From assembly GCA_950295325.1 (NCBI GenBank), contig OX485803.1, forward strand, positions 5,084,001-5,148,000: a stretch of DNA of 64,000 nt. Direction: 5' to 3'. This document shows, in pieces, positions 791-62,890 of this stretch. The translations under genes were made by a program, and so were the position numbers. Source of the DNA: Polytrichum commune (taxonomy: Eukaryota > Streptophyta > Polytrichopsida > Polytrichales > Polytrichaceae). The stretch's first letter is position 1, and every line of letters starts with the position of its first letter. A model generated the notes under the pieces. It had not been told where the DNA came from. It saw only the letters and a program-made list of their open reading frames with translations, and did not search any database.

Positions 791-1344
791 GACAGAATGT
801 GTCAAAAACTGATGTTCTGGTCAAGAAAGGGCCAAGTTAAGAAGTAGCTTTTGCAGTCATGAATATGACTGCCTAGGTTGCTACTTTAATGGTACTGGGT
901 GATGTTTTGACCTAATGAGCAATTGTTATCTGACCAGAGGGTTGCTTAAACTCAAAGCCTTAATCTGGATCTCATGGGAACTCCAAGGTTAAGCCACCCT
1001 AAGGCTGGAACAACACTTGGATGGGTGACCTTCCTCACACTCGATTTCCAGTGCACCCTACCATCTGTGGTCCATGCAATCATGGTGGGGGTATTTGGGA
1101 GAGCCAGATATTTTCAACCAACCATCTGGGAACCTCGGGACTAGACCTTGGGGGATATAAGTGGAGGTCGACTTGTCTAAGACTGTTCAAGGTGTTCACC
1201 TTTTAAAAGAGGCAGTAGTCTTTGGGGGCCCTCTAATTCTCATGCATGTTTCCAGATTATATCTAAACTTAGACCAACTCAAAGATGAAGCAACACTATA
1301 ATTCACGTCGGTGGCAACATCGGAGTCATCTCTTCTTTTCTTCT

Positions 1345-26599: not shown

Positions 26600-28770
26600 T
26601 TATTGTCTACACTATACTTTAACTTGGAGCATCATGTCCGACTACTTACAGATCCCGGAGTCTATGTAGAATGGAGAATCAATCTCTATGTATTCTTTTA
26701 ATCAAGACAGGAGAAATAGAAATAGAAAAAGAAAGCACATCTTCCTCCAGATTTATCTCCTCCACCAAATTGCCTTGGGAACGAAAAGTTTTGCACTCAC
26801 GGAAACAACGCAGAGGTCCATGTGAGAGGGAAGATTCCCGCTCTGCACCACTATGCCAAGAATATGAAAAGAGAGGAAAAACTCAGGAGAGTAAACTGTC
26901 GAATTGATATCTTCCTAGGGTTTTGGTGATTGGCGCCAATGCAATCATATCTCTGAAGTTCTCATCGAAAATCCTTTGATCCTTGCCCTATCAACGGATG
27001 CAAGCTCCGGATCGAATCCGAAATCCTGTATCGAACTTCAATCTGACCTACTCTATTCTCGATCCGCTGAAAAACACCGATCATCTCCATACTGTTGTTC
27101 TTCAGCGGCACTGAACCTAATACTTGTCGACTGAAAATACAATGTCATCACAATGTGGAAGGATTGAATCACCTACCATGCGCCTCTCCATTGCTGAGTC
27201 CACGCTGCAGATCCACCATGCTCCCCGAAGGAAGGCTACAGACAGACAGACAGACAAGCTCGGATAGAGATCTAAGTTACTTTAAACGAAGACCATAAAC
27301 CCTGGCATTACTTCATTGGCGAGATAAGATAAAAGTTGTCACAAAAATTTCCCGAATATTCGTAAAGAAGGAAGAGTCCGTGTTTCTCTCATCTCGCCGA
27401 AACTCCGCCACATCTGCTGAACAAGTGGACAACGGAAAATTGGAATTGCCCGAATAGGGAGCTGCGTTGCAAGATTAGCAAGCTTTCGAGTTTGCCAGCC
27501 CTGGCTTCTTGCCTTGCGTTTCGGGTGACGGAGCCAATAGCAAGACTTGTTTTTCAAGAAATCTCTTGTTTTGTTGGCTACCGTGGCACTCTATGCATCA
27601 TTTCCTTTAAATAGAAATCTCTATTTCAGTTCATCGCTTCGTTGATGATGAAAGCCTTTGAAGTTTAAACCACTTACGTCCGGTGCTGACACTGTCTTTT
27701 GATTACCTCGCCCTAACGTTTTCATGTGATCGCACAACTTCTTCCTCCGGATACTTAAGTAGGTCACACAGGCAGATCAGCAGTGTCAACACAAGAGGGA
27801 GGGCAAACCAACCCATACACTGGCTCCTTGTTGGATGACTGCCGCCAGTGTACGGGTTGTTTCGCCCCAGCCTTTACAGATGAGTCCTTCAGTTCCGAAA
27901 TAGTCCTCATGAATGGCGGTGGTAAAAAGCCATCCTTACCATTGCAGATGATGCTGATGTATAATTTTTGTGATGATCAATGTCTGTCGACATTGCCAGA
28001 TCCTGTGCTGATGACGATGTCTCTCAACATTGCAGACGGTGCTGTGTTTTGATGTCCCTATCAAGAATGCTCATGACTGCTCAGCTCAGATCTCAGGGTT
28101 GTGATGATACACGAAGAACAATCACCCTTGGGGAGATGATGAGTTGTTCATAATGTCAAATTTGAGACAGACAGACCGAGGGATATAATGTATTGCTGTA
28201 TTTTCATGTTTTATCATTCATTCAACTGGCCTTATGAAGGTCAGCGAAGTCCTTCAAGAATATTCGTTGAAGACCGCAATCTGCTGCCGAGGAAAAGTCT
28301 GCCAAGAAGGATTCAAACTGTAAACAGAGATGATTTAGGGTTTAGAAAGAACACATGTCCACATGATGAGTACAGGCATTAATGGGAGCTCATCGCTTAC
28401 GGCATCCAGATCATTCTGCTAGAGCGCTTTGCCATAACGATCGGTATTGCCGGCACGTAATTGATGAGATCCACCATGTAGCTGTAATGCTCTGCTCTAC
28501 TTTACAAAACTTTACAGCACACATCTGATCTTATGTCAAGAGAGTCTCCCGAACAAATAGCTTCGCAGATCTACCGGGCCCAGAAGATGTAAATCCGTGT
28601 GCTCATAACACCAAAGGTAGATGGGTCTTAAATGGTTACTTCTTCCTACTAGCCCATTTCGCCTGGATTACAAAACCAAAGACGTGATCAGTACAAAATG
28701 TTTAGCAAGTCTGCATCGAGGCCGCAGCCACTATCATCATAATTTTCGGAGCTCACATGAACATCTTATT
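26600..28770. other. Upstream of the 161-residue gene; no further gene assigned
   Basis: It probably contains the promoter and any untranslated leader exon of the minus-strand gene ending at 26599. Short open frames at 26671-26907, 27339-27557 and 27783-28052 have no recognisable domains or splice partners, so they are not called. Confidence 0.4.
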
Positions 28771-28772
28771 TA

Positions 28773-29269
28773 GGGCCACTTCACACACGAGCCAAGGGCC
28801 GTGACCATGAAATTGTGAGAGCCCAAACGAAAGTGTGCAAATGCCGTCCCAACACACCTCCAACATCATGTAGTGGTCACGGACCCTTAAGTGTAATGTG
28901 AAGTCATATGTGACCGGGCCCTCAACCAAATGCTATTTCGACAAATTTCTATTCATGCGGGTCCTTACACATGATAAAACAGAATAAACCAACGGTTGTG
29001 AGAGTTCAGAGTGCCATGGTCTCCCAGTTTTGTGTTAAGCCTACCTCCAAGAGGTGGTTTTTGAAAATAATCCAAGGGACCATGAAACATGATCCATTCA
29101 ATACCATGTAAGAGTCCATGTAGACTTTACACCCATCCTGCATTCACATACTTTGTTGGTCCCTCAAGCGTAGTATGAAGCGAACATGGACCGGCTCCGC
29201 CATTTCCACCACTGAGAGTGTTTGAAGTGTAATGGTCACGGGCCTTCAGTCTTGTGTGAGAATTGGCCC
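28773..29269. mobile_element. MITE family A (GGGCCACTTC ends), copy 1
   Basis: The ends are GGGCCACTTCACACACGAG...GGCCGTGACCAT and, reverse-complemented, GGGCCAATTCTCACACAAG...GGCCCGTGACCAT, with TTA at both flanks (28770-28772 and 29270-29272). The 497-bp element has no coding frame. TTA duplications and G-rich ends fit a PIF/Harbinger-type MITE. It sits inside a family C fragment (GGAGCTCACATGAACATC flank). Confidence 0.85.
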
Positions 29270-29272
29270 TTA

Positions 29273-40308: not shown

Positions 40309-42578
40309 TCATTCAATGAGAAGAATCTAATATCTATTTTGACCTCTCATGACCTTTGTATTCCAATTCTGCTTCTCCAACTTGGAACGGCAATCTTCAT
40401 GTTTTGCAATCACTAACTGGATGAGACAATTCTTAATTTGATGGATCATACAATGGAGTGGAGGTGCCCACAATAGGGCAAGAGGGAATCATCGCATACA
40501 AGTGTACCTCTCATTGCTCCAACATAGAGGCCTTGAATTCATATGCAAGCTGGAGAATACAACTTTTATATAGTTGATTTCACACCAAAATGAGCATTAA
40601 AGACCCCAAATTAATATAGTCCAAGTGAATTTGAGACGAATTAGCCACAAAGCTATAGAGAGATCAGGTGTTCATGTTGGATGGATGAGAGGTACGCTTG
40701 TATGCAATAATTTCCTTACATAAATTGTAGCCTCGGTACTCCTAGAAAATCCGTACAAACTATGAGGAATGTGAATTAAGGCATTACTTGCTCCTCATAC
40801 GTTTGTGTATCGTCCCATTAATGGAAGGCTTATATGTAGTGGAAAACAAGTCTCCATGATAGGTGTACTCACCTTCAATTACCACCACCTCAACACAAGT
40901 GAGTGCTAGAAACGCTATTGTCCTCTAAGCGTACGGTTGCACTAATGACCAATTACCATGACCACTGCTCTCTAGATTCTATCATTGGTTGAGAACGGAG
41001 TGGCGATTCCACTTCGTTTCACACGATGTCGGCAAAAGTGAAAGTGAATATGTCAGGGAACGGATGAGAAAGCGACATGGAATCTTACATATTCTTAAAT
41101 GGATAAATTCATGATGGTCACCCATATTTTGCAACAAGAGAATCCAAATAAATTTTCTCGGCACGAAAATCGCGAGTGACCGTGTCAAGGGAAAATTGTA
41201 GTTTTAGTATTTTTTTAATTTTCAACGCCATATTGTTAATAGTTTTTCAGCATTTGTCTATTTATAGTCATCTAACATTCTTTTGAGGTTCTTGAAAATG
41301 CTACATCATGGTCTAAGTCCGCTCTACACTATGGTCCCATGACCAAGGCTCTTAAGAAGTGATGTGAAGTTCTCTTGGTCATGGTCTTCGGACCGCTGAC
41401 CACAACCCCGAGAAATCCTAGAGTCAACAAACCTTTTTCCTAATACCCCCCCCCCCCAATCTTAGTACATAGAATCCCTTAAAATCATGAAGTTCCACAC
41501 ATGTAGCCGTCATTTTCTAACGTGATGCAAAAAAAGTCACGAAGAATCACACATGTAACTGTCACATTTGGTGTGATGAAAAAAGTAAGTTAAAACGGCA
41601 CGGATTCAAATTCTCTAAAAAGGGCACCAACCGTACTCAAGTTTCCATCCTCCCATATACCTGAAATAGGTCGACCTATGCTGTGAACATGGGTTAGGAG
41701 AGAATCTTACCTTTAAAATTTTACAATAATCTCATAACACAAAAATAAATTACGATTTTTCAAATTTTCATGTTAAACATTGTCATATCAATATCCGGAC
41801 ATGTGAAAAATCACCCCAATATCACTACACTCATGCGAAATAGCATAAGGTAACGTCAATATGTATGTCTACCCTAAACCCTAACCCCTAAACCCTAATC
41901 ATACTTTTCTCTTGCGGTCCTTGCCGCTCACGTGCGTAAAAAGGCCCTAACTTAACTTGATTTGCCCTCGCCTAAACAACACCCTTCCTTTGCAAGCACG
42001 TACTAATTAAGGTGCTCCCTCCACACTCAAAATTGATTGTATCTAGACTTATGCAAAGTGGACGCCTCCGAGGAAGTCGTAGGATGTACAACAGGTGAAC
42101 ATTTCAGAGCAGGTCATCATTGTCCTGAAGAACTTACACGAGCAAGCCGCCAGTGAATTTGCAGCAAGTACTTATAACCTCACCGTCTCCTTGGGAACCG
42201 TGTAAGTTCACACTAATGAATGGGGAGAAGCGACGTCTACACTAAATAACCCTATTAGTGTGGGTGGAAAATGACTAGTGTGGGCCACACTAATCTTCTA
42301 GTCAAGGTGGAATTAACGTGGGTCCAGACGCTTGGTCTTTTTCCAAGTCGTCACGAAGACGTCCGACCAACACGTCGAGTATGAGTTACAGGATAAAAAA
42401 TAGCACACAATAAAGTAGTCATCCACATTAATTTTTTAGAAAAAGAATGATCGTGGTCCACACTGATTTTCACTGTAAATCTAGTGTGGATTGAAGTTGA
42501 TGTGGCCCACTTCAATTCTCATTATGAAAATCAGCGTGGGCTCTACAATTTCGTTTGTGGCCCACAGTAGTAGGATTG
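39061..42578. other. Repeat-rich gene-free stretch
   Basis: It contains a decayed foldback (about 39112-39355) related to 58549-58783, a family C remnant (about 40310-40476), a GA microsatellite (40274-40309), a C run (41448-41457), short telomere-like CTAAACCCTAA words near 41875-41900, and several TAGTGTGGG words near 42230-42560. No coding gene found. Confidence 0.45.
40486..40713. mobile_element. Foldback MITE, family G
   Basis: The left arm, TCGCATACAAGTGTACCTCTC...CCAACAT, is the reverse complement of the right arm, ATGTTGGATGGATGAGAGGT then ACGCTTGTATGCAATAA. A related stretch with the same arm lies near 58335-58370. No coding capacity. Confidence 0.6.
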
Positions 42579-42770
42579 TTTAGTGAAGTTACATATGACC
42601 TGGTTGAGTTTGAAAAAGAACTGGTTGAAGTTCAAGACTTCATGAAATTTATGGATCAATCTAGAGGGATTTACCAGAATATCCCTACGTTTACTAGAGA
42701 AAATTTGAAAGATGTCAACATGTAACCGGTTTATATTGGAAACAATAGGATCTCGACCGATTATGCCCAC
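42579..42770 (+). repeat. Repeat family B, copy
   Basis: It shares CTGGTTGAGTTTGAAAA...CTGGTTGAAGTTC, AAAGATGTCAACATGTAACC and GATC..GACCG.TTATGCCC with copies at 51930-52130, 56661-56880 and 57219-57425, and with inverted copies in 53858-55275 and 62190-63190. Length is about 200 bp; probably a small DNA element. Confidence 0.6.
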
Positions 42771-43340
42771 AAATCTCCATGGACATCGTTTCATTTCACA
42801 CTAGGCAAAGCCTCCACCATCATCCCATGGCCTCCCTTTCCGACTCAACATCAATCTCTAGAACTACACTAAATATTGTACTTCGTGTCATATGGTATTT
42901 TATGTATGTCATTGTGGTACCTTCTCTAGTGACAATTTTTGTGGACAAGTCTACAAGTATTATTGTCATACCAACTTACTTTTGTTCATTCAAAAAGTGA
43001 TTATTGGAACGAGTTTTAAAATATTCCGCATTCTAACATTTTTGTAATGAAATATTGTCGGGATGATTGAAACTTGAATGAAATATGACTCCGCTTTGCA
43101 TGCTCATGTGGACTTGTCACTTGACATACATTCGATTCTCATTGATTGGAATTCATCATGTGTACACTTATAGTGATGAGAGATAGGTAGGGTTGAAAAC
43201 AAAACAAAATGTTGATATTCTTGCATTGACATGAATTTGAGCCCGTTCAATTTGCCATAATCGTGGTTGTCCATGATGAAGAGCAATGCATGGGACATTC
43301 CTTTCATAAGGCGGGTTTTATGGTATCCAAATTTTATGAC

Positions 43341-44228
43341 ATTTTGTTAAGGATGAGGTATATGAGGTATTTTATGACATTTTGGTGCATAAGTTTCATG
43401 CGATTCTTGATGATGGGTTTGGAAATCTTTTTCAATTTTGCCGTTGATTGTTCATCTATGATGCCTCCAAATCATGTCATAATAGTATTAGGGGGTTGAC
43501 CTTCCATCCTATGTTTAAGTATGTCTATTGTTGAGTCATTTTTAACGTGTTCCTTCTTGATGGTTGTCTCTCATAACATTATTCAGATCCATAACAGTGT
43601 CATGTGGGACTGACAATAGTTCACAAAATATCCCTATATTCAGCCCGAATGTGGGAATATCATGTGGAATATTGTCAGTCCCACGGAACATTGTTGTGGA
43701 TCCGAATAATGTTATGCTAAGTATCAATCATGGCAATGTGTGAATTCGATATTATATTGTGTGTAATGGGATGGGGCTATTGATACTTGACTCTAATTGG
43801 GGGGCGCCTATTGTGCATATAGTGTCATGCCTTAGTCTTGCTTTGCAACAACAAGTTATGTTATTGCACGGGCATGGTAATAGCCGTTTTAAGAAGGTGT
43901 GGCCACATGTCTTTATCATTGTGCAATTGGGGTTTGTGTGGGTAAGTGACCAATTGTTTTGTCTATATATTGTGCATATTGGAATCTGAGTGTTTTGGGT
44001 AATTTGTGCTTTAATTATTCCGGTGACTTTCCAAAAGAAGTTGGATAGTTTATGGTTAATTTGTTCAATGGTTAGCCATTTGTTGACGTGTGTGAATTTG
44101 TATTGAGTTATAGTGGGTTCACTTTCTGTGTGCTCTTTGTTGATGAATGTGTGTGTGTGTGTGTCGTTTTGTGATGTCATTGCCATGTGTGGCAATGGCC
44201 GGGGGAGGGGGGGGGGTGCGACAACCAA
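43341..44228 (-). pseudogene. RLE-type non-LTR retrotransposon C-terminus, copy 2, interrupted by a MITE
   Basis: Read on the minus strand, this is a decayed homologue of the plus-strand copy at 55288-55925. Order: a DMWPHLL knuckle remnant (near 43890), then LLPCPC, CCCKARLRHDTICTIGAP (RPD has become RHD), and IIEF-like bases near 43740. A 145-bp foldback MITE at 43572-43716 follows. Then come GWKVNPLI (near 43510), GGIIDEQS-like bases, and HQNVIKYLIYLILNK ending near 43341. Frames shift several times and parts are deleted, including most of the segment between knuckle and RPD. It keeps GGATGGAAG where copy 1 has a stop, so the two copies decayed independently. The 5' part (reverse transcriptase) may extend into 44229-44840, but I could not confirm it. 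Confidence 0.7.
43572..43716. mobile_element. Foldback MITE, family E, inserted in the retroelement remnant
   Basis: The arms CATAACATTATTCAGATCC...GTGGGACTGACAATA and their reverse complement on the right match over about 55 bp. Decayed relatives lie near 14028-14130 and 18355-18440. The element separates two parts of one retroelement reading frame, so it inserted after the retroelement did. Confidence 0.75.
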
Positions 44229-45660
44229 TATGGGATTGTGTGTGCAGTATGTATGTGGAGGTTTGGGTTTTCTATGTCTTTAGTTGCTCCATCATTTGCT
44301 ATGTGCTTTGACTTTCCATAAGTGGTTGTTTTTTGTTTGGTCCAATAGATTGGTGGACAATGTATGCTACTTACAACTTATATAAGTGGTGTTGCTGGGA
44401 GAATGGGTGTACGCTGTGTGATTGTTTATGAGGTGTATGATGTTGATGCTAATTATGAAAATTTAGGTATCTAGTTGGGTAGTTTGTACGGATTAATGGC
44501 CAATACAATGGCATCGAGTTCCGCTCTATATCATCGTAGCCTTTCAACAATTTGAAGGTTGTTGTTGGGATTGGTTTGATTGGGTATGTATCATTGCGGA
44601 TGTTGATATTTTATGTATAATGTGTACGAGTTTTTGTGTTACTTGTTTGTGTCATGGAGGGTGTTGTTGATTATATACACAAATTATGTATATTAGGGAG
44701 GGCTATGATCATTGGTAGTATTTAAGCCATTATGGTGTTGGTGCATATATGAAGGAGTGGGGTGAGATTGTTAGAAGTGAATGTAGGTCGTTATGTTGGC
44801 TTGAGGGGAGTTGATGGGTTGGGTAGAATTGAATAGAACACGAGACATTCAGGTCTAAGGTAGACATGTCTTAAGTGGAAACTTTTTTGAGATTGAAACC
44901 TTATTGCGGGAGATCTTCAACATGCAATTTCTTGACATACTTGCAAATGTGTATGCTTGATTTCTAATACAAATTTGGATAGAAATTTTTTAATGCCAAT
45001 TTGGAGTTCATGGGAATTTGTTATAAGTTTCTAATATGCTACAAGATTTGTTGTGTTCATAGATGCACCACGGATGTGTTCCCATGGAAAAAGCTTTTGA
45101 TATTTAAAGTAAACTCCTTAGTATTATCACATTGAACACAAGTCAAATATTTTGGGCATTCATTTACTTCAAATAGATCGGCATATGAAACTTTTATGCA
45201 AATAATGGTGGCATTCACTTTCAGATTATGTAGTAGGTCTTCAAAGAATTAATTACATGGTAGGACTAATTCAACTGCATTCTAACATCAATAAAAGTTG
45301 GAAGGTGAGCAACCACTTGATGATGATGAGTTCCACTATTCAACATTGAAGTAGGTATTCCGTTTTTGGAGGCGTTGTTTTCGAAGACACATCTACCTCA
45401 ACCGATATTCTTCACCAATTCAATGCAATACTTTTGCTAGTAAGACTGGGGGGATGTTAAACCTCCCCCTACGAGCTTTCAAGGGGAGGTGGGATAGGGA
45501 CCGGGGCAACCCCCCAGAAAAATACCAAATTTTCTACTCTCGACAGAAAATTGGTGTCCATCCCGCCCGACTCAGAAAAAAAACATTGCCTTGTATTCTT
45601 GAAGGTCGTTGTCCACGAAACCCATATTGAGTGCACTTCACCTCCAAGGTCCAAATTCCA

Positions 45661-47271: not shown

Positions 47272-47735
47272 GCAGCTGCTGCTTCTCGAAGACTTCAGCT
47301 TCTTCACGCAATATTTAGTCCAGCAGCTCGGGGGAGGGATAATTGCATTGGAGGTCCAGGGGTAAGGTAGGATGGATGTGGAGGCTGGGAGACAAGGAGA
47401 GGAAGCAAGGTTGACCAATTTCGTCTTCACCTGTTGCAGCTGCTTTCCGATGACTTCTTATTCTTCCCGCATATAGTCCAGCAGCTCGGAGGAGGGATAA
47501 TTGCATTGAAGGTCCAGGATAAAGAAGACTCGGGATGTGAAAGTTGGGAGACAAGGAGATTGAGCAAGGTCGACCTATTTCGTTTTCACCTATTGCAGCA
47601 GCTGCTTTTCGTGCGGCATTGAGTGCAGCAGCTCGGAGGAGAGATAATTTCATTGAAGGTCCAGGGAAAGAAAAGATGGATATGAATGTTGGGAGGCAAG
47701 GAGGAGGAGTTGGAGCAATGTCGGTGCTTCTACTA
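47272..47735 (+). repeat. Three-unit tandem array spanning the lipid-transfer gene start
   Basis: Units of about 150-163 bp begin near 47272, 47436 and 47597. Each has a GCAGCTGCT word, GTCCAGCAGCTCGG-like, AGGGATAATTGCATTG-like, AAGGTCCAGG and GGGAGACAAGGAG-like landmarks in that order. The third unit runs into the coding start at 47676. Earlier units hold counterparts of the same start region (ATGGATGTGGAGGCTGGGAG near 47373). Confidence 0.75.
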
Positions 47736-48041
47736 CTGCTAATGCTTCTGACAACACGGGGGATGGTGGAGACCGCGGAGGGATGCAGCCTGGTCCAGTT
47801 GGTGACATGCATGCCGGCGAGCAGGAGCGGGGCTATGAAACCCAGCCTGACATGTTGCAACCATCTGAGGACGCTCAATGCAAGAGCGCATGGGATGTCT
47901 CGGATGACTTGCTTGTGCTCTCTGTTCACATCCGATGCCGCTCGACTCCAGGGTGTGAAGCCTCGAGTGGCTCTAGGCATTCCCAGGAAGTGTAGGTTGC
48001 CAGTTCCACGAGGCTACATGTGCAATGGTACGCTGTCCTAA
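47676..48041 (+). CDS. Lipid-transfer-protein-type eight-cysteine secreted protein
   Basis: A 121-residue single-exon frame. A hydrophobic segment (about residues 15-27, MSVLLLLLMLL) gives a likely secretion signal with cleavage before about residue 37. The mature part has the eight-cysteine pattern of the nsLTP/2S-albumin fold: C37, C45, C60-C61, C79-L-C81, C106 and C116, spaced C-7-C-14-CC-17-CLC-24-C-9-C. A hydrophobic residue in CXC resembles type 2 LTPs, but the 17-residue CC-CXC spacing is long. Family members bind lipids in the cell wall or apoplast. The ATG at 47676 was preferred because it places the signal peptide near the N-terminus. The sequence after the last cysteine, AATGGTACGC, could be a splice donor, so the final residues NGTLS are uncertain. 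Confidence 0.75.
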   Translation: MDMNVGRQGGGVGAMSVLLLLLMLLTTRGMVETAEGCSLVQLVTCMPASRSGAMKPSLTCCNHLRTLNARAHGMSRMTCLCSLFTSDAARLQGVKPRVALGIPRKCRLPVPRGYMCNGTLS

Positions 48042-49410: not shown

Positions 49411-51929
49411 ATACAGCTGAAGTTTTTGTAAAGCAGCATGACGATTACATATAAGACGGATAAGTGTTATTTTTGTTATCTTACAATTGTAGAGGAGAAC
49501 ACAAGTATAACACAAATAACATTCTCCTCTCCAATTGTAATATCCTTACATAGAGGAGCATTTTGATAAGGATTGTCCCGTCTCTACGTGCGCAACATCG
49601 CTCATCAATGTGAATTGAAACCTCTGAGATCATCACAAGTCTGAAATTTCAGTAGGTATGAAGTTGATGACGTATCAAGGATATTGCACTTGCAAAGTAA
49701 GTGTAGCCTGGTCTAAGGTATTGTGGGCACTTCCATCTCTACATATATAATTTTGGTTGTTGGATTGGGGTGGGAACTGTCTCATCCGCTTAGCAATTGT
49801 GATAGATCACAAAGATTGTCTTTTCAAGTTTCAGAATTGGAATCTGGAGGCAAAAGTTATAAGAGATCAAAGTGAAGATTCTCTCTTTAGGTGATCAGAC
49901 AGACCCTCCCAATAGTGTTAGACTGTTGATCTAGAATGGTGTCTATGTTTTGAGCACATAATCCAATTTCATTGGAACGCATGTCTGTTTGGTGTCCGTT
50001 CATAACTACAGGCCTTGCTAAATACCATCTAAATGTAGGTGTCCAATTAAGAAGTGTGATCACATAAGCTAGGGGGCATTTAGCCTGTTTGACACCGTCT
50101 TGATGCACTTTTAGTCCCATAAGCCTTTTGGCTTCTCAGACTTCATAAGGTCCACACGCTGTAACTTATTTCATGAGATATTGCAGACATTGCAAGAATG
50201 TTGCACATTATGGAAGCACTTTTCAATGTATGTATATTCTGATATTAATGCCTCTCATACTACTGTTGCAGGTCTCAGAGTGCCCGGAGGTTAGGATCAA
50301 TGAAGGTACCATATTAATTACTCTCGTGAGCAGAGAATAGAATTGTGCATGGTTATGGGGTACTTACATGCAATTGTACAACTTCGAAGCCATAGAGGGA
50401 TGATGTGGATGATATAAACTACTTTCTGACACTATGAAATATCTGTGAATCGTTGGTGCTCACTTTCATTTAATATAATTACCTGGCTAAGACTGATGCC
50501 ATGTGATCTACTGTCAATATTGTTCGACAGCAATCCATTTGCAAGACAATCTTGCAAAAGTTATGCCAATTTTTGAAGTCTTCAGGATCAAGTGGTTCAT
50601 AATCTGAATCTGAAGCAGATCAATTGTTTGTGATTGTCATCAGCAGAGATCGATATATGAGTCAAGATTTTGTGGGTGAAAATGTTGACGATATTGTTTT
50701 TTTTAAGAATTTGTGTCTGGATATTGTACAGAAAACCAGGTCATGGTTGGTGTTAGTGTAGCTACAGATCAACCATCAAGGGCATACTGAATCTGAATGA
50801 CTCCTTTGTGTGATATTTTGCGATGACTTCAAATTCTTTGAAGTAAACTTCAAAATTTGTATGCTTTCAATTTCTACATTAGTGCAGTGTTGTAATGGGC
50901 ACACACGTTAGATTTTTGGCATTCAACCAAGCCATTTTGAATTGAGCTAGCCTACCTTGGAGGCAAATCTGCACCAATTTATTGAATATTCAAGTTTGTC
51001 TGTTGAGAATTAAAGACAAAGTGAAACAGATTCCACAGGAACACGGCATTGCTATCCTAAGTTGCAAGAGATGGGGTTATGACTTGCAAATCAGTAATTA
51101 AATCAATCCTGGGAATTGTGTCAATTTGGTGGTGATGATGCTTGCATTGATAATGTTAGCTGTTTAAAATAAACCTCATTTGGGAGGGCACAGTGTTCAC
51201 TTGTACTCACAATGACGTTCTTCATTAAATTAACATTAACGTACCGTCTCAACGAAGTGTGCCTGTCGAGCAAAGTTTCCTGAAGAAGACATGCAAGAAT
51301 ATTCATTCTGTTGATGGTGAAAGGATGAGCTATGTACAAATAGCTATCAAATGACATGTGTGTGTGTGAGAAGATCTGCAAGTGTGTTCACTTCCTTTTA
51401 TTGATACGATTGGTGTGATATTGATACGATTGGTGTGATATTGATACGATTGGTATTGATATTGTTTATTGATCCTTTTATTGCAAGAATGTAAGTTAGT
51501 ACGATTGGTGTGCTCTTTTACCTTTGTATGAAAGTTGAAACCTGCAATTCATAAACGTTGGTGTTAAGTAGGTAAGCTAATGATTGATCAAATCCAGTTA
51601 TTTATGTGCACACTAAGTGCACGTGATCGAACAATATCCTACACTCGCTTTTTGGAGAATGCAAAAGAGCCGAGTGAGTTATTGTGTCAACTTAGTAGCA
51701 ATGGCCGCCTCGCTTTCCCTACTCCTGGAAAAGTAGACAGCCCACCAGAAATCCTCGAGATTCCAAAATGAATTCATTGTTGTGGAATGATAGGGAGCTT
51801 CAGCTTGCTCATGATGGCAAGGGCTCGACACCTTCTAGTTTGAAATTGGCTCAATCGAGTTCAAATCACTGAAGGTACGATGGGTCTTGAATGGTTACTT
51901 TTTGTGACTAGCTCACGTCTCCTCAATGA
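49411..51929. other. Gene-free stretch with a family C copy
   Basis: 49719-50090 is a family C element (TATTGTGGGCACTTCC end, GAGCACATAATCCAAT and ACTACAGGCCTTGCTAAATA inside). A TTGATACGATTGGTGTGATA micro-tandem lies at about 51400-51460. Nothing coding was recognised. Confidence 0.45.
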
Positions 51930-52130
51930 ACGGGGAGAACCAGCTGCTCATTACAGATAAACTGGTTGAATTTGAGAAGTATCTGGTTGAAGTTCGAGAT
52001 TCCAGGAAAATTACTGATCATTTTAAGGGAATTTAGCGAACATATCTCAAAAACGATAAAGAAAAACCGAAAGATGTCGCATGTAACCAGTTGGACTTGG
52101 AAACACGAGGATCTTGACCGCTTATGCCCA
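51930..52130 (+). repeat. Repeat family B, copy
   Basis: ACGGGGAGAACCAGCTGCTC, AACTGGTTGAATTTGAGAAG, AAAGATGTCGCATGTAACC and GATCTTGACCGCTTATGCCC landmarks. It is followed directly by family C sequence (GGAGCTCATATGAACATC near 52240). Confidence 0.65.
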
Positions 52131-52573
52131 AAAATCTACATGGACACCGCTTCTCCTATGGTTACATGAAACACACGATTATTACAAGATGGTGAACAAA
52201 TCCAAATTGAGGCTCCATAGTTTTCTCCAAACCCTCATAGTTTTTGGAGCTCATATGAACATCTTATTTACCATTTACGTGAAGATCATGGTATTCTTTA
52301 AGTGGTCATATGCTCCTCCTCCCCCCCCGGCAAGCCTCCAATTACATTGACTATTGAACCTGGAACGCTTGTCATATTTTGAGCACGTAGTCCAATCCCA
52401 TGTAAACATGTGTCTTTTTGGTATCCGTTCTTGGAACCACACCTACCAAATATAGGTGTCTGATTAAGAGAAGTAGTTGGATTAGGCACGTCTACGTCAC
52501 CTCCATTCCATTTCTTCGCCTTGCTTGTGTACCAGTTGGCTATCTTCATTCTTCACCAGTCAAAGGCTATAAG

Positions 52574-53857: not shown

Positions 53858-55275
53858 CAGTGCCCGGCGAGATTTTGGGGCCACAAGCAAGCGGTCGAGG
53901 ATCTCAGTGTTTCCCAAGTCCAACCGGTTTGCATGTTGACATCTTATTTAGGGCCACTTCACACACGAGCCAAGAGCCGTGACCATGAAGTTGTGAGAGC
54001 CCAAAAGAAAGTGTGTGTCCAAAGGCCGTCGTCCCAATACACCTCCAAAATCATGTAGTGTGGTCACGGACCCTCAAGTGTAGTGTGAAGTCATATGTGA
54101 CCGGGCCCTCAACCGGTGGAGGATCCCAGTGTTTCCCAAGTCCAATCGGTTTGCATGTTGACATCTTATTTAGGGCCACTTCACACACGAGCCAAGAGCC
54201 GTGACCATGAAGTTGTGAGAGCCCAAAAGAAAGTGAGTGTCCAAAGGCCGTCGTCCCAACACACCTCCAAAATTGTGTAGTGTGGTCACGGACCCTCAAG
54301 TGTAGTGTGAAGTCATATGTGACCGGGCCCTCAACCGGTGGAGGATCCCAGTGTTTCCCAAGTCCAACCGGTTTGCATGTTGACATCTTATTTAGGGCCA
54401 CTTCACACACGAGCCAAGAGCCGTGACCATGAAGTTGTGAGAGCCCAAAAGAAAGTGAGTGTCCAAAGGCCGTCGTCCCAATACACCTCCAAAATCATGT
54501 AGTGTGGTCACGGACCCTCGAGTGTAGTGTGAAGTCATATGTGACTGGGCCCTCAACCGGTCGAGGATCCCAGTGTTTCCCAGTGTTTCCCAAGTCCAAT
54601 TGGTTTGTATGTTGACATCTTAGGGCCACTTCACACACGAGCCAAGAGCCGTGACCATGAAGTTGTGAGAGCCCAAAAGAAAGTGAGTGTCCAAAGGCCA
54701 TCGTCCTAACATACCTCCAAAATCATGTAGTGTGGTCACGGACCCTCAAGTGTAGTGTGAAGTCATATGTGACCGGGCCCTCAACCAAATTCCATTTCAA
54801 TGAATTTTCTATTCATGTGGGTCTTCACGCATAATAAAATAGGATTAAATCAACGGTTGCGAGCGTTCGGAGTGCCATGGTCTCCTGGTTTGGTGTTAGG
54901 CGTACCTCCAAGAGGTGGTGTTTGAAAATAGTCCAAGTGAGCATGAAACACAATCCGTTTGATGCCATGTGGGAATCCATGTAGACTTCTACATCCATCT
55001 TACATTCACATACTCCGTTGGTCCCTCAAGCGTAGTGGGAAGCAGCGAACTTGGACCGGCTCCGCCTTTTCCACCAATGAGAGTGCTTGAAGTGGAATGG
55101 TCATGGGCTCTCAGTCTCGTGCGAGAAGTGGCCCTTAGGGTTTTCCTTCAAGGATTCGAGGCATCTTCCATAGATTCCTCGCGAAACGATGGGTTACTTC
55201 TCCTCAAGCCTTGAACTTCGACCGGCCGTTTCTCAAACTCCACCGCTTCATCTACAACTAACGACCGGTTCTCCC
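53858..55275 (-). repeat. Repeat family B copy split by a family A MITE complex
   Basis: The left piece 53858-53950 (AAGTCCAACCGGTTTGCATG, TTGACATCTTATT) and the right piece 55137-55275 (CCTTGAACTTCGACCGG, CTCAAACTCCACCGCTTCAT, ACCGGTTCTCCCT) together make one family B element in reverse orientation. The MITE complex at 53951-55136 is inserted in it. Confidence 0.65.
53951..55136. mobile_element. MITE family A, copy 2, with its left end amplified four-fold
   Basis: It starts GGGCCACTTCACACACGAG and ends CTCGTGCGAGAAGTGGCCC, with TTA on both sides (53948-53950 and 55137-55139). Instead of one left end there are four, starting near 53951, 54171, 54393 and 54618 (spacing about 221-230 bp). Each repeat carries about 165 bp of MITE left end plus about 57 bp identical to the host flank just outside the element (GATCCCAGTGTTTCCC...GTTGACATCTTATT). 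The last unit runs on into the rest of the MITE. Confidence 0.85.
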
Positions 55276-55287
55276 TATGCATTGGTA

Positions 55288-55925
55288 TGTGGGGTGTGAG
55301 ACACGTGGCCACACCTACTATCTACATGCGAACACCCATACTTAAAAGGTCTAAGAATCGCTCGGCACAACAAAGCAGTGCACCTCATCACCCAGACCCT
55401 GCAACCAAACAAAAACACCCGATACTACACACTAACCAATGCATGCATCAATAACAATAGGTCACCGGACCAAACAATTCCACATTGGCTCCTTAGATGT
55501 ACATGCTCGCAACCACCATGCTTATGCCTAGCCAAACTCCGACCCGACATACTATGTCTCATAGGAGCCCCAAACCACACACCAACCCCAATTACACCTT
55601 CCCCCATAATCACAACCCAATTCATCGAATTCACATACTGTCATGACAGATTCCCCGACCAAGCCATCGCACACAAACACACTAAATACGACCCACTAGT
55701 AAACACCATACAAAACAACAGATGAAAAACTAACCCACTCATCACCATCATAGTCGGAGTCAGAGGAGCCATACACGAACACTCCATCAACAAACTCACC
55801 AACCTTAAAATCCCAAAACAAGCCTCATGAAAAATATCCACCAAAATGCCATCAAAGACCTCACATACATTATTCTTAACAAAAGAAAGCTAGAAAACAA
55901 ACAAACACCTGTCCCCCTTCCCTAA
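55288..55925 (+). pseudogene. RLE-type non-LTR retrotransposon C-terminus, copy 1
   Basis: In one frame from 55288: a CCHC-knuckle-like block CGV-stop-DTWPHLLSTC (the second Cys position is TGA), then GLRIARHNKAVHLITQTLQ, IPHWLLRCTC, AKLRPDILCLIGAP, FIEFTYCHDRF, KHTKYDPL, NPLITIIVGVRGAIHEHSI and LKIPKQAS. The frame then shifts and ends MKNIHQNAIKDLTYI, LNKRKLENKQTPVPLP and TAA at 55925. Knuckle, RHN, RPD and a downstream glutamate are the signature of restriction-like-endonuclease (RLE) non-LTR elements such as the R2/NeSL/CRE types. The endonuclease nicks the target for reverse transcription. Stops at 55297 and 55723, a frameshift near 55837 and the missing reverse transcriptase make this a dead, 5'-truncated copy. 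The plus strand is unusually poor in G. The minus-strand relative is at 43341-44228. Confidence 0.75.
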
Positions 55926-56660
55926 GAGAAAAAAAACTTTCTTGAATATAACAAATGAGCCCTCCTCGTAAGAGGCATCACGCTTATTACTGCATCACGG
56001 AAAACCGCGATGAGCAATAAGCTAACGGGCTCTCAGTCATGCCGGTACCTGGCTACGGGCGTCATATTTATTTACATGGGGTGTTATTCTTATTACTTTT
56101 CCAACACGGACAACTATGGTTTTATTAGTTGTGCGCGTGGTGTGGTGAGGATCGAAGAAGAAGAAGAAGCGCAAAAGACGCGTGTTTGAAGTAAATTGGA
56201 TTACGTTTTCAAATCTTTATCAAACAACTCCATAGGTATCGTCACAGTGGACATAACTGGTCCCAAACCCTAATGTAAAACCCTAGTAAGAGCCCTCGTA
56301 AGTGTAACTTATCTTACACACTCCCCGGCCGCAAGTAATAGCCGCTGTAAGTTTGGTCATAAAAACGGGGTCTGCAGGCATGACTCTTCCACTCCAGGCT
56401 CCTGCCAATGTGTCAATAACTAGGTATTTATTTATGGGTTGAATAGCAATTATCCTCGAAGAGGTGGTGTCAAACAAAAGGGAGGGCAGGCAGAGAGAGT
56501 GATTCTCCACTCCCCAACTTCAATGTTATGCAAGGTACGAACATGTTTACCCCCTCGGCCCCAAAGATTATTGCATTTCCGCTTTAAATTCGCCTCGCGG
56601 CATCCGATATGGGCTCGGTCCCATTCAATTTAAATAACCATGGACATTATATATATAGGG
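55926..56660. other. No gene seen
   Basis: 3' flank of the retroelement copy. Includes a GAAGAA run near 56150-56170. Short open frames have no recognisable content. Confidence 0.4.
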
Positions 56661-56880
56661 GTTAATGAACGGGCAGAACTGACCGCTAGTTACAGATGAA
56701 CCAGTTAAGTTTGTGAAATAACTGGTTGAAGTTTGAGGCTTCATGAAAATCACCCATCTTCTTAGAGGAATCCATGGAATATACCTCAAATTAACCAAAG
56801 GAAACACCGAAAGAGCACAACATTTAACTGGTTGGACTTGGGAATAACTAGGGTTTTGACCGGTTATGCCCCTCAGGGGG
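56661..56880 (+). repeat. Repeat family B, copy
   Basis: AACGGGCAGAACTGACCGCTAG, ATAACTGGTTGAAGTTTGAG, TTAACTGGTTGGACTTGGGA and TTTTGACCGGTTATGCCCC landmarks. Confidence 0.6.
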
Positions 56881-57218: not shown

Positions 57219-57425
57219 ACAAGGAACGGGGAGAACCAACAACTAGTTGTATATGAATTGGTTGAAGATCAATCAAGGTTTTTGATTCTGGAGAATTAAC
57301 CATCATTGTAGAGGAATATATAGAATATACACCTCTAATTGAAGAAGACGACATGGAAGATGTCAACATGTGACCGGTTGGACTTGGAAACATTGGGATC
57401 TTGGCATATTACACCCAAAAGTATT
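57219..57425 (+). repeat. Repeat family B, copy
   Basis: AACGGGGAGAACCAACAACTAG, GAAGATGTCAACATGTGACC, GGTTGGACTTGGAAACATTG and GGATCTTGGCATATTACACC landmarks. Confidence 0.6.
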
Positions 57426-57715
57426 CCCGGGCATTCGATGGGTATGTCAAAGTGAGAGAATCTTTGTATGCCTGAGTTATTGTTTGGGTCAATAGTACCA
57501 GTCTCAACCATAATGACACAAGGCTCATTATACCTCGATATGAAAGTTTTTGAATGGTATATAGATCTGAATGGTATCGAGAACAAAAAATAGAATAAGA
57601 AAACCCATCAAATATCCGTATCCTATTGGTACGCAAAAAATTGTGAAATCCTCATAACACATACCATACTGGTATCAAACAAAGACAATACCAAACCAAT
57701 GTTGGTCGTAAGGCA

Positions 57716-61050: not shown

Positions 61051-62189
61051 TAGTGTACTAAAAAATAAATTGTGCGATTTGAGGTGGGTGTAAAAAATTC
61101 AAGTGCACTATTTCCTAGGAAATTTCCGCTTCTTTTCAAAAACAAAAATTGCATTGCTAGCCCAAATCCTCCCCTTTCACATCCGTGTTGGACTATTGGG
61201 CAAAAGCACAAGGGCCGAACTATGGTAGATGGAGAAGTTCTCAGATAGTGTAAGAGATCATGAGTTTTACATATGCAAACGCCCCGTGAGGGAGCTTAGG
61301 ATTTATGGCACCATGTTCGTGGCATAGAATGAATGCGAGAAAGGAAGGGGGGGGGGGTTTGAAAGTTAAAAATAAGATGAAAGTTTTTGGATTTCTCATC
61401 CCAACGTAGTCTCATTCTGCTAACTCAATGGTTATGATGTTAATGTCGGGGTCAAATATGCTAAAAACAAACCCTAAACCCTAAGTTCAGGGGTCCTGCT
61501 TGCTATTTACATTTTTCTATGGCTTACAAAAGAGACGTCCCTCTAATGTAAGATGGATGCCATGCTAGCCTAAAGTAGGTGGACTAAATCCTAAACCCTA
61601 AACCACTAAACCCTAAACCACGACTAAATCAAGGGAGGTCTAATATTGATTTGTTATATATATATATATATGTGAAATGGATGCTTCAATATAGATTTGC
61701 TAGTGCAACACGAGTTTCATTGACATGTATAAATCTTATCAGTGGAAGTTGGAGACCATGGAAAGCAAACCGACTGACATCAACATACCTTAAGGGCCTC
61801 TTGGACCTCAAAGGATTGCACTCTCTTGCCTTACGAAAGACGACTCCTCTTCATGTTAAAACAGATGCAACGAAAGCTTGAACTCGGTGGACTAATAGCC
61901 CACCCACACAAACTAGTGCATGCCACCAATGAACGGTTCCTACCAACATGGGGCCACTTTTAGAGTTGGTTTAGCCAGTGAGAGCCACTAGATGTAACCA
62001 GTGTTGGTACTCACCTTTCACTGGTGGTCCGCATCAATAAGTGTGGGTGGGCTATAACTTGAGGACCACGACACTAATTCCAAGATCAAATATGCTCAAT
62101 GCGCACAAGGTCGATCGAGCTACAATGGATTCCCAACGTTTTCATCTCACATGGTTGCCATGAATCCTCCTTTGGCCCTCACCAATGTC
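61051..62189. other. No gene seen
   Basis: It contains short telomere-like AACCCTAAACC words near 61470-61490 and 61590-61620, a TA run near 61655-61671 and a G run near 61346-61358. No exon-like frames with recognisable content. Confidence 0.4.
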
Positions 62190-62890
62190 CAGGGAGATTT
62201 TTCACGCACAATCGCTCGAGATCCTAGTGTTTCCAAGTCCAACCGGTTACATGTTGACATCCTTCGGGGTTTCCTTATTAATTTGAAATATATTCCTTAG
62301 ATTCCTCTAAAATGATGGGTAGTTTTCCTTGAAGTCTTGAGACTCAACCACTTAGGGCCACTTCACACACGAGCCAAGAGCCGTGACCGTGAAATTGTGA
62401 GATCCTAAAGGAAAGTGTCCAAAGGCCATCCCAACACACCTCCAAAATCATGTAGTCTGATCACGGTCTTGAAGTGTAGTGTGAAGTCATATGTGACCGG
62501 GCCCTCAACCGAATGCTATTTCAATGAACATCTATTCATGCCGGCCCTCACGAACGATAAAATAGAATAAACTAACGGTTATGAGCGTTCGGAGTATTGT
62601 GGTCTCCCGGTTTTGCGTTAAGCCTACCTCCAAGAGATGGTTTTTGAAAACAGTCCAAGTGAGCATGAAACATGATCCATTCGATACCATGTACGAATCC
62701 ATGTAGACTTCACATCCATCTCGCATTCACATACTCCGTTGACCCCTCAAGCGTAGTGTGAAGTAGCGAACTTGGACCGGCTCCGCCTTTTCCACCAATG
62801 AGAGTGCTTGCAATGTAATGGTCACGGGCTCTCAGTCTCGTGTGTGAAGTGGCCCTTATTCTCAAACTCCACCGATTCATCTGTAACTAG
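62190..62890 (-). repeat. Repeat family B copy split by a family A MITE
   Basis: 62190-62354 (CAAGTCCAACCGGTTACATG, TTGACATCC) and 62856-62890 (CTCAAACTCCACCGATTCAT) are the two halves of one reversed family B element. Another reversed copy follows at about 62950-63190. Confidence 0.65.
62355..62855. mobile_element. MITE family A, copy 3
   Basis: The ends GGGCCACTTCACACACGAG and CTCGTGTGTGAAGTGGCCC are perfect inverted repeats over the first 19 bases, with TTA on both sides (62352-62354 and 62856-62858). Length is 501 bp. This single-headed copy shows the normal structure against which the amplified copy at 53951-55136 can be judged. Confidence 0.9.

Follow-up and report, generated by a model that had tools for sequence, protein, structure and literature searches.

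A dead retrotransposon fragment in Polytrichum commune and its probably dual-endonuclease family

The copy in the window

The stretch of Polytrichum commune DNA analysed here (C1:5084001-5148000, 64,000 nucleotides, hereafter the window) contains at 55298-56076 a dead, 5′-truncated copy, approximately 780 bp long, of a non-long terminal repeat (non-LTR) retrotransposon. This fragment, copy 1, is very probably what target-primed reverse transcription (TPRT) left of a long element of the dual-endonuclease (Dualen/RandI) type, i.e., one with both an apurinic/apyrimidinic (AP) endonuclease and a restriction-like endonuclease (RLE), and not of an element with the RLE only. It comprises the end of the polyprotein encoded by the second open reading frame (ORF2) and the 3′ untranslated region (UTR), with the following features.

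55290..55297, +: candidate target-site duplication, 5′ copy, TGGGGTGT, immediately 5′ of copy 1
55298..56076, +: copy 1, ORF2 polyprotein end and 3′ UTR
55300..55925, +: RLE domain remnant (latter half of the CCHC knuckle, RHN, RPD, E, KY, GVRGAIHEHS, LNKRKL, stop)
55312-55329, +: HLLSTC
55360-55380, +: ARHNKAV
55540-55551, +: RPDI
55624-55635, +: IEFT
55675-55698, +: KHTKYDPL
55723..55725, +: in-frame TGA
from 55759, +: VRGAIHEH
from 55875, +: LNKRKLENKQ
55923-55925, +: terminal stop TAA
55954..56066, +: structured 3′ UTR with a 6-bp closing stem, a short hairpin, a long covarying hairpin and a 3′ hairpin (covariance model, E 1.2e-24; copy 1 is part of the model)
56077..56084, +: candidate target-site duplication, 3′ copy, TGGGGTGT

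The closest sister copy, L002, is homologous to copy 1 over 55298-56074, at 94% DNA identity (blastn). The initial annotation had described an RLE-type tail at 55288..55925, in which a series of motif blocks ran through a single frame to a stop. All the named blocks are present in copy 1 in the stated order, and an element tail does lie there, within an element that reaches from 55298 to about 56076 and includes the structured 3′ UTR. The single frame did not hold: the open stretch at 55300-55722 (141 amino acids, aa) is closed by the TGA at 55723-55725, and LNKRKLENKQ, together with the final TAA, occupies a different frame than the preceding blocks, which shows that copy 1 has suffered at least one nonsense change and at least one frameshift. 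The reported CCHC-like knuckle is half there; its H...C part is present, and the CX2C part seen in 16 aligned copies is gone because the 5′ truncation falls inside the knuckle. A Pfam scan of the copy 1 frame itself matched no family. Since 5 of 182 mismatched locus pairs also reach 8 bp in a wide-window null, the 8-bp duplication of copy 1 alone is modest evidence. The window feature itself is an ordinary dead fragment, and its interest lies in its family.

The family across the genome and its enzymes

We searched the 407.8-Mb assembly (64 contigs) with the 141-aa frame as protein query and scored the best 150 of 4,449 first-look candidates, copy 1 included. At least 150 genomic places, again counting copy 1, match the frame at E <= 2e-66. 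The 149 others that were scored share 71-94% protein identity with copy 1, are spread over all seven large contigs and include open frames of up to 2,422 aa, and at the DNA level almost the whole of copy 1 is matched by at least 40 scored places, its own among them. The family is native to this genome and multicopy. One might suspect a foreign or chimeric stretch derived from an alga, an oomycete or an animal, or a recent horizontal transfer from one of these, because a 2022 review (PMC9033089; here, as for all literature cited, in the accessible part of the source) gives only L1 and RTE among the long interspersed nuclear elements (LINEs) of land plants. Such an origin of copy 1, and with it the chimeric or non-plant contig that the initial annotation had considered, is very unlikely, since every one of the seven large contigs carries scored copies and their divergence implies long residence. 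Moreover, both copies in the window are decayed, the second (copy 2, described below) being interrupted by another repeat, and no relative was confirmed in viral or prokaryote (not eukaryote) collections. Horizontal transfer is also not needed, because the same element type has been reported from green algae.

The angiosperm setting assumed in the initial annotation proved incorrect. Contig C8 (146,561 bp), taken as the plastome, carries rbcL with trnR-CCG beside it, a frame read as accD, and two uninterrupted PF00148 frames (520 and 508 aa), interpreted as chlB and chlN. To our knowledge, angiosperm plastomes lack chlB and chlN, and these frames therefore identify the host as a non-flowering plant.

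Two full-length copies, on C3 and C4, share 98.7% identity in their 5′ 3.7 kb and 99.8% in their 3′ 2.3 kb, and homology between them is lost at the 5′ end GAGAACAAAGAAG. The length of the C4 copy is 12,558 bp (12.6 kb). Perfect 13-bp target-site duplications, TGCAAGGGGAGAT, flank the C3 copy; no duplication was seen in the flanks of the C4 copy. The C3 duplication is the one clear case. Of 14 truncated copies, copy 1 and L005 have 8-bp candidates, and the remaining 12, with rough junctions, had no duplication longer than 7. Two frames lie upstream of ORF2: one of 457 aa in L039, taken as ORF1, and an uninterrupted low-complexity one of 934 aa with a high content of T, P and H, located 5′ in a full-length element (L079 2779-5580). 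Neither matched a Pfam family above cut-off.

Three long copies (L039, L040 and L041) were read for their anatomy. Exo_endo_phos_2, RVT_1 and RNase_H exceed the Pfam cut-off in all three, in one frame each, and Exo_endo_phos does so in L039 and L040; the RNase H match (PF00075) has E values of 2e-16, 4e-15 and 4e-13 in L039, L040 and L041, respectively. The order of domains is AP endonuclease, reverse transcriptase (RT), RNase H, then CCHC and RLE. It is because the three copies hold the first three enzymes in one frame, followed by CCHC and RLE, that we assign the element to the dual-endonuclease type. A cysteine protease has been reported for Dualen; in our family, Pfam showed no protease family in the ORF2 and 5′ pieces scanned, although a diverged protease could escape such a scan. 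Between RT and RNase H, all three long copies contain a sub-threshold PCIF1_WW-like match (PF12237, E 1.1e-5 to 1.3e-6; aa 1684-1770 of the L039 ORF2). A profile of this stretch found no PCIF1 structure, and a PCIF1 identity is kept as a lead.

The knuckle pattern in the 16 aligned copies is CX2C-X9-H-X4-C. Residues C60, C63, H73, C78, R90-H91, P150, E178, K194 and K197-Y198 are invariant among them, and the D of RPD is retained in 15 of the 16. We modelled the RLE structure for the family, with the copy 1 stretch included in the alignment. Foldseek comparison of the model with PDB chains placed R2 proteins at ranks 1-4 (E 2.7e-4, 2.7e-4, 6.8e-3 and 0.088), and by VIA the model aligned to the C-terminal R2 endonuclease in five of the five R2 entries listed, with weak Z. 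The C-terminal domain is thus predicted to be an R2-type RLE with a PD-(D/E)xK-like fold. Two results weigh against the dual-endonuclease assignment at this point, namely the low confidence of the structure model and the RLE sequence profile, which found no R2 chain in PDB.

Selection acts on both ends of the polyprotein. Between subfamilies (three pairs), the ratio of nonsynonymous to synonymous divergence (omega) was 0.17-0.20 for the AP endonuclease and 0.07-0.12 for CCHC plus RLE, with synonymous sites near saturation. For the RLE, omega had a median of 0.086 and was at most 0.122 over 82 of 91 pairs, nine with too small or undefined synonymous divergence being omitted. Both endonucleases are kept by purifying selection.

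When the RT was compared with PDB sequences, R2 came first (1e-27), followed by L1 ORF2p (7e-19 to 6e-18) and Bombyx R2 (2e-17); the bit scores of R2 (100 to 63) and L1 (71 to 68) do not separate the two groups. This closeness to R2, together with the fact that copy 1 alone shows RLE features only, would fit a plain RLE element of the R2/R4/CRE/NeSL/HERO type with no AP endonuclease. We regard that reading as highly improbable, since the AP endonuclease lies in the frame of the RT in three of three long copies and RNase H lies between RT and RLE. The initial annotation was hence right in recognising a C-terminal RLE tail in a plant nuclear genome with a layout other than L1 or RTE, as both the RLE and the T-rich tails confirm, and the AP endonuclease of the long copies turns its RLE-type element into a dual-endonuclease one. 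There is next to no probability that the motifs arose by chance in a stretch rich in C and A, or that the RNase H of a plant L1 was mistaken for an RLE: the copy 1 frame is compositionally biased, Pfam is silent on it and plant L1 can carry RNase H, but omega does not exceed 0.122 in the 82 pairs used, the best structural match of the RLE model is the R2 endonuclease, and the RNase H of the family lies upstream of CCHC, the reverse of plant L1 (PMC5348765).

2A-like motifs, the 3′ UTR and other repeats in the window

The sequence NPGP occurs in all three long copies in the context YY-x-WNNST-x-I-x4-GD[I/V]-x-x-NPGP, allowing for a difference of one residue, and these 2A-like motifs precede the enzyme domains in ORF2. 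In L039, motif and enzymes share one 2,422-aa frame. The motif lies in a different frame than the RT in L040 and L041, which indicates that both copies are frameshifted, and K, Q or H there replaces the consensus E of the 2A motif. A 70-aa query spanning the motif, for which the best 150 of 662 first-look candidates were scored, gave 151 matches. Thirty of the loci yielded 37 pattern hits, of which 29 fit D[V/I]ExNPGP, or 27 of 35 if the doubly fetched L064/L065 is counted once; as the query was taken from one of these copies, close relatives are over-represented. Some open frames appear to hold two or three units, judging by equal frame lengths, e.g., a pair at C1:44784403 and 44784862 (frames of 2,409 aa) and a triplet at C1:66446772, 66447006 and 66447423 (frames of 841 aa). 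The motifs may direct StopGo recoding, and they bear on the natural use of StopGo in plants; the accessible part of a 2026 study reports no evidence of StopGo in plant viruses.

The 3′ UTR of the family is a strongly covarying structured RNA. The tail of copy 1 folds with a z of -5.63 (55926-56040), and with -3.28 in a shifted stretch. In an alignment of 36 rows, 32 of them distinct, from which L004, one of 36 oriented loci, was dropped as its 3′ part does not align, 92.3% of cells pair and 19 of 34 pairs show two-sided changes, a number reached by none of 500 shuffles and compared with 4-8 in slid controls. Of the covarying pairs, 14 belong to the long hairpin and 5 to the 3′ hairpin, and both closing stems hardly vary. 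The 3′ tails are T-rich and mostly (TTTTC)n-like, with (TATT)n-like tails in the subfamily of copy 1. Some 3′ UTR matches begin near the first stem (query 35-38), at C3:21399377, C1:27018491 and C4:7206257, and could be very short truncated copies or partners resembling short interspersed nuclear elements.

A common insertion target was sought in the flanks. Rfam searches of 20 loci gave a single match, resembling a transfer RNA, and no ribosomal or small nuclear RNA. This match, in L015, lies approximately 70 nt past the 3′ end and was unconfirmed by ARAGORN, which found no transfer RNA genes in 33 loci. Among 34 flanks, only column 1 exceeded the null (0.52 versus 0.43 bits), an excess that arises because a leading T was trimmed, and no common target emerged.

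Copy 2 is a strongly decayed relative of copy 1, recognised by tblastn (E 6e-5). L002, L039, L040 and L041 match it patchily between 43342 and 44816 (blastn), and its RNase H remnant, for which Pfam gave no match, was recognised by visual inspection.

43205..44816, -: copy 2, with remnants of RNase H, linker, knuckle and RLE, and the 3′ UTR (5′ limit approximate)
43205..43321, -: 3′ UTR structure of copy 2 (covariance model, 64.9 bits, E 5.6e-14; this row is part of the model)
43572..43716, no strand assigned: fold-back insertion (inverted repeat I5) with 70-nt arms, 81% complementary, which splits the RLE of copy 2

Alone, the 3′ UTR of copy 2 folds poorly (z 0.77 for 43226-43340, a stretch shifted relative to the later model match), yet its sequence fits the family structure. 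A possible third, ancient 3′ UTR tail at 1189-1330 (+) gave a weak covariance model match (16.9 bits, E 0.027).

Other repeats occur in the window. A repeat of about 0.5 kb at 54620-55137, 28770-29272 and 62351-62858, with copies 85-86% identical, resembles a miniature inverted-repeat transposable element (MITE), with inverted ends that match each other (GGGCCACTTCACACACGAG) and TTA at either end. Just upstream of copy 1, at 53888-54786, four tandem 222-bp units combine MITE sequence with part of a second repeat. An interspersed repeat family lies near copy 1 in both orientations (42587-42786, 51924-52147, 55154-55283, 56663-56871, 57220-57434 and 62206-62354), and the MITE-like repeat appears nested in its copies at 55154-55283 and 62206-62354. 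The window further contains a frame with a plant lipid-transfer protein domain at 47541-48038 (+; PF14368, E 4e-9) and short interstitial CCCTAAA-type telomere-like repeats at 41872-41898 and 61584-61621.

Relationship to known elements and proposed mechanism

The family resembles R2 of insects, birds and turtles in its C-terminal CCHC and RLE after the RT, and R2 provides its closest RT and RLE in PDB. R2 also has a structured 3′ UTR, as in the family here; it lacks both AP endonuclease and RNase H and is targeted to 28S ribosomal DNA, whereas our family has the two enzymes and showed no common target in the loci examined. Land-plant L1 and RTE elements carry an AP endonuclease before the RT, as this family does. 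They differ from it in that it has an RLE and T-rich, mostly (TTTTC)n-like tails in place of (A)n or (GTT)n (PMC9033089), and where plant L1 has RNase H, its CCHC lies upstream (PMC5348765), unlike the order found here.

Dualen combines an AP endonuclease with an RLE in a single element (PMC3636483, PMC4640811), and RNase H has been reported for Dualen/RandI. Its occurrence is given as green algae only in the accessible text of a 2015 survey (PMC4438587), it is found in relatives of Chlamydomonas (PMC8226300), and Table 3 of a further source (PMC3747384) assigns RandI to green algae and L1/RTE to flowering plants. No land-plant case turned up in the accessible parts of the literature on Dualen retrotransposons, a search that did not extend to Repbase or GenBank. 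Our family shares with Dualen/RandI an AP endonuclease N-terminal to the RT, a C-terminal RLE and an RNase H in the same polyprotein, and with green-algal RandI 3′ tails other than poly(A) (PMC3747384). It differs in its land-plant host, the 12.6-kb copy and an ORF2 with a single 2A-like motif or several, a comparison made with published descriptions of Dualen. The family probably belongs to Dualen, an assignment based on domain layout. Similar unannotated proteins may exist in other non-flowering plants. D[V/I]ExNPGP motifs also occur inside proteins of trypanosome L1Tc and of sea urchin and other animal non-LTR retrotransposons (PMC4981915). The motif in the protein of our element recalls L1Tc and the sea urchin elements; in contrast to these non-plant cases, the host is a plant, an RLE is added and several copies have tandem motifs.

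The perfect 13-bp duplication around the full-length C3 copy supports TPRT, and the following cycle can be proposed. The element RNA would be translated into the ORF1 protein and the ORF2 polyprotein, with ribosome skipping at the 2A-like NPG/P motif or motifs presumably freeing the enzyme polyprotein. The RT would bind the structured 3′ UTR, as the covariation suggests and as has precedent in R2. One of the two endonucleases would nick the target, and the exposed 3′ end would prime synthesis of complementary DNA; the second strand would be cut by the other endonuclease or by the same one, giving rise to target-site duplications, and the model leaves the assignment of enzymes to strands either way. 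RNase H may help to remove the template, and incomplete synthesis would yield 5′-truncated copies such as copy 1.

The fuller proposal is that of a land-plant, Dualen-type LINE lineage, 12.6 kb long, abundant and recently active, which produces its enzyme polyprotein via StopGo/2A and carries two or three tandem units in some copies; we judge the case for it to be evenly balanced. If true, StopGo would be in natural use in plants, and the range of Dualen would reach beyond green algae into land plants. A dual-endonuclease family in a land plant makes it possible to ask why two endonucleases are kept and which of them nicks first, and it raises the question of whether Dualen was present in the ancestor of green plants and was then lost toward flowering plants.
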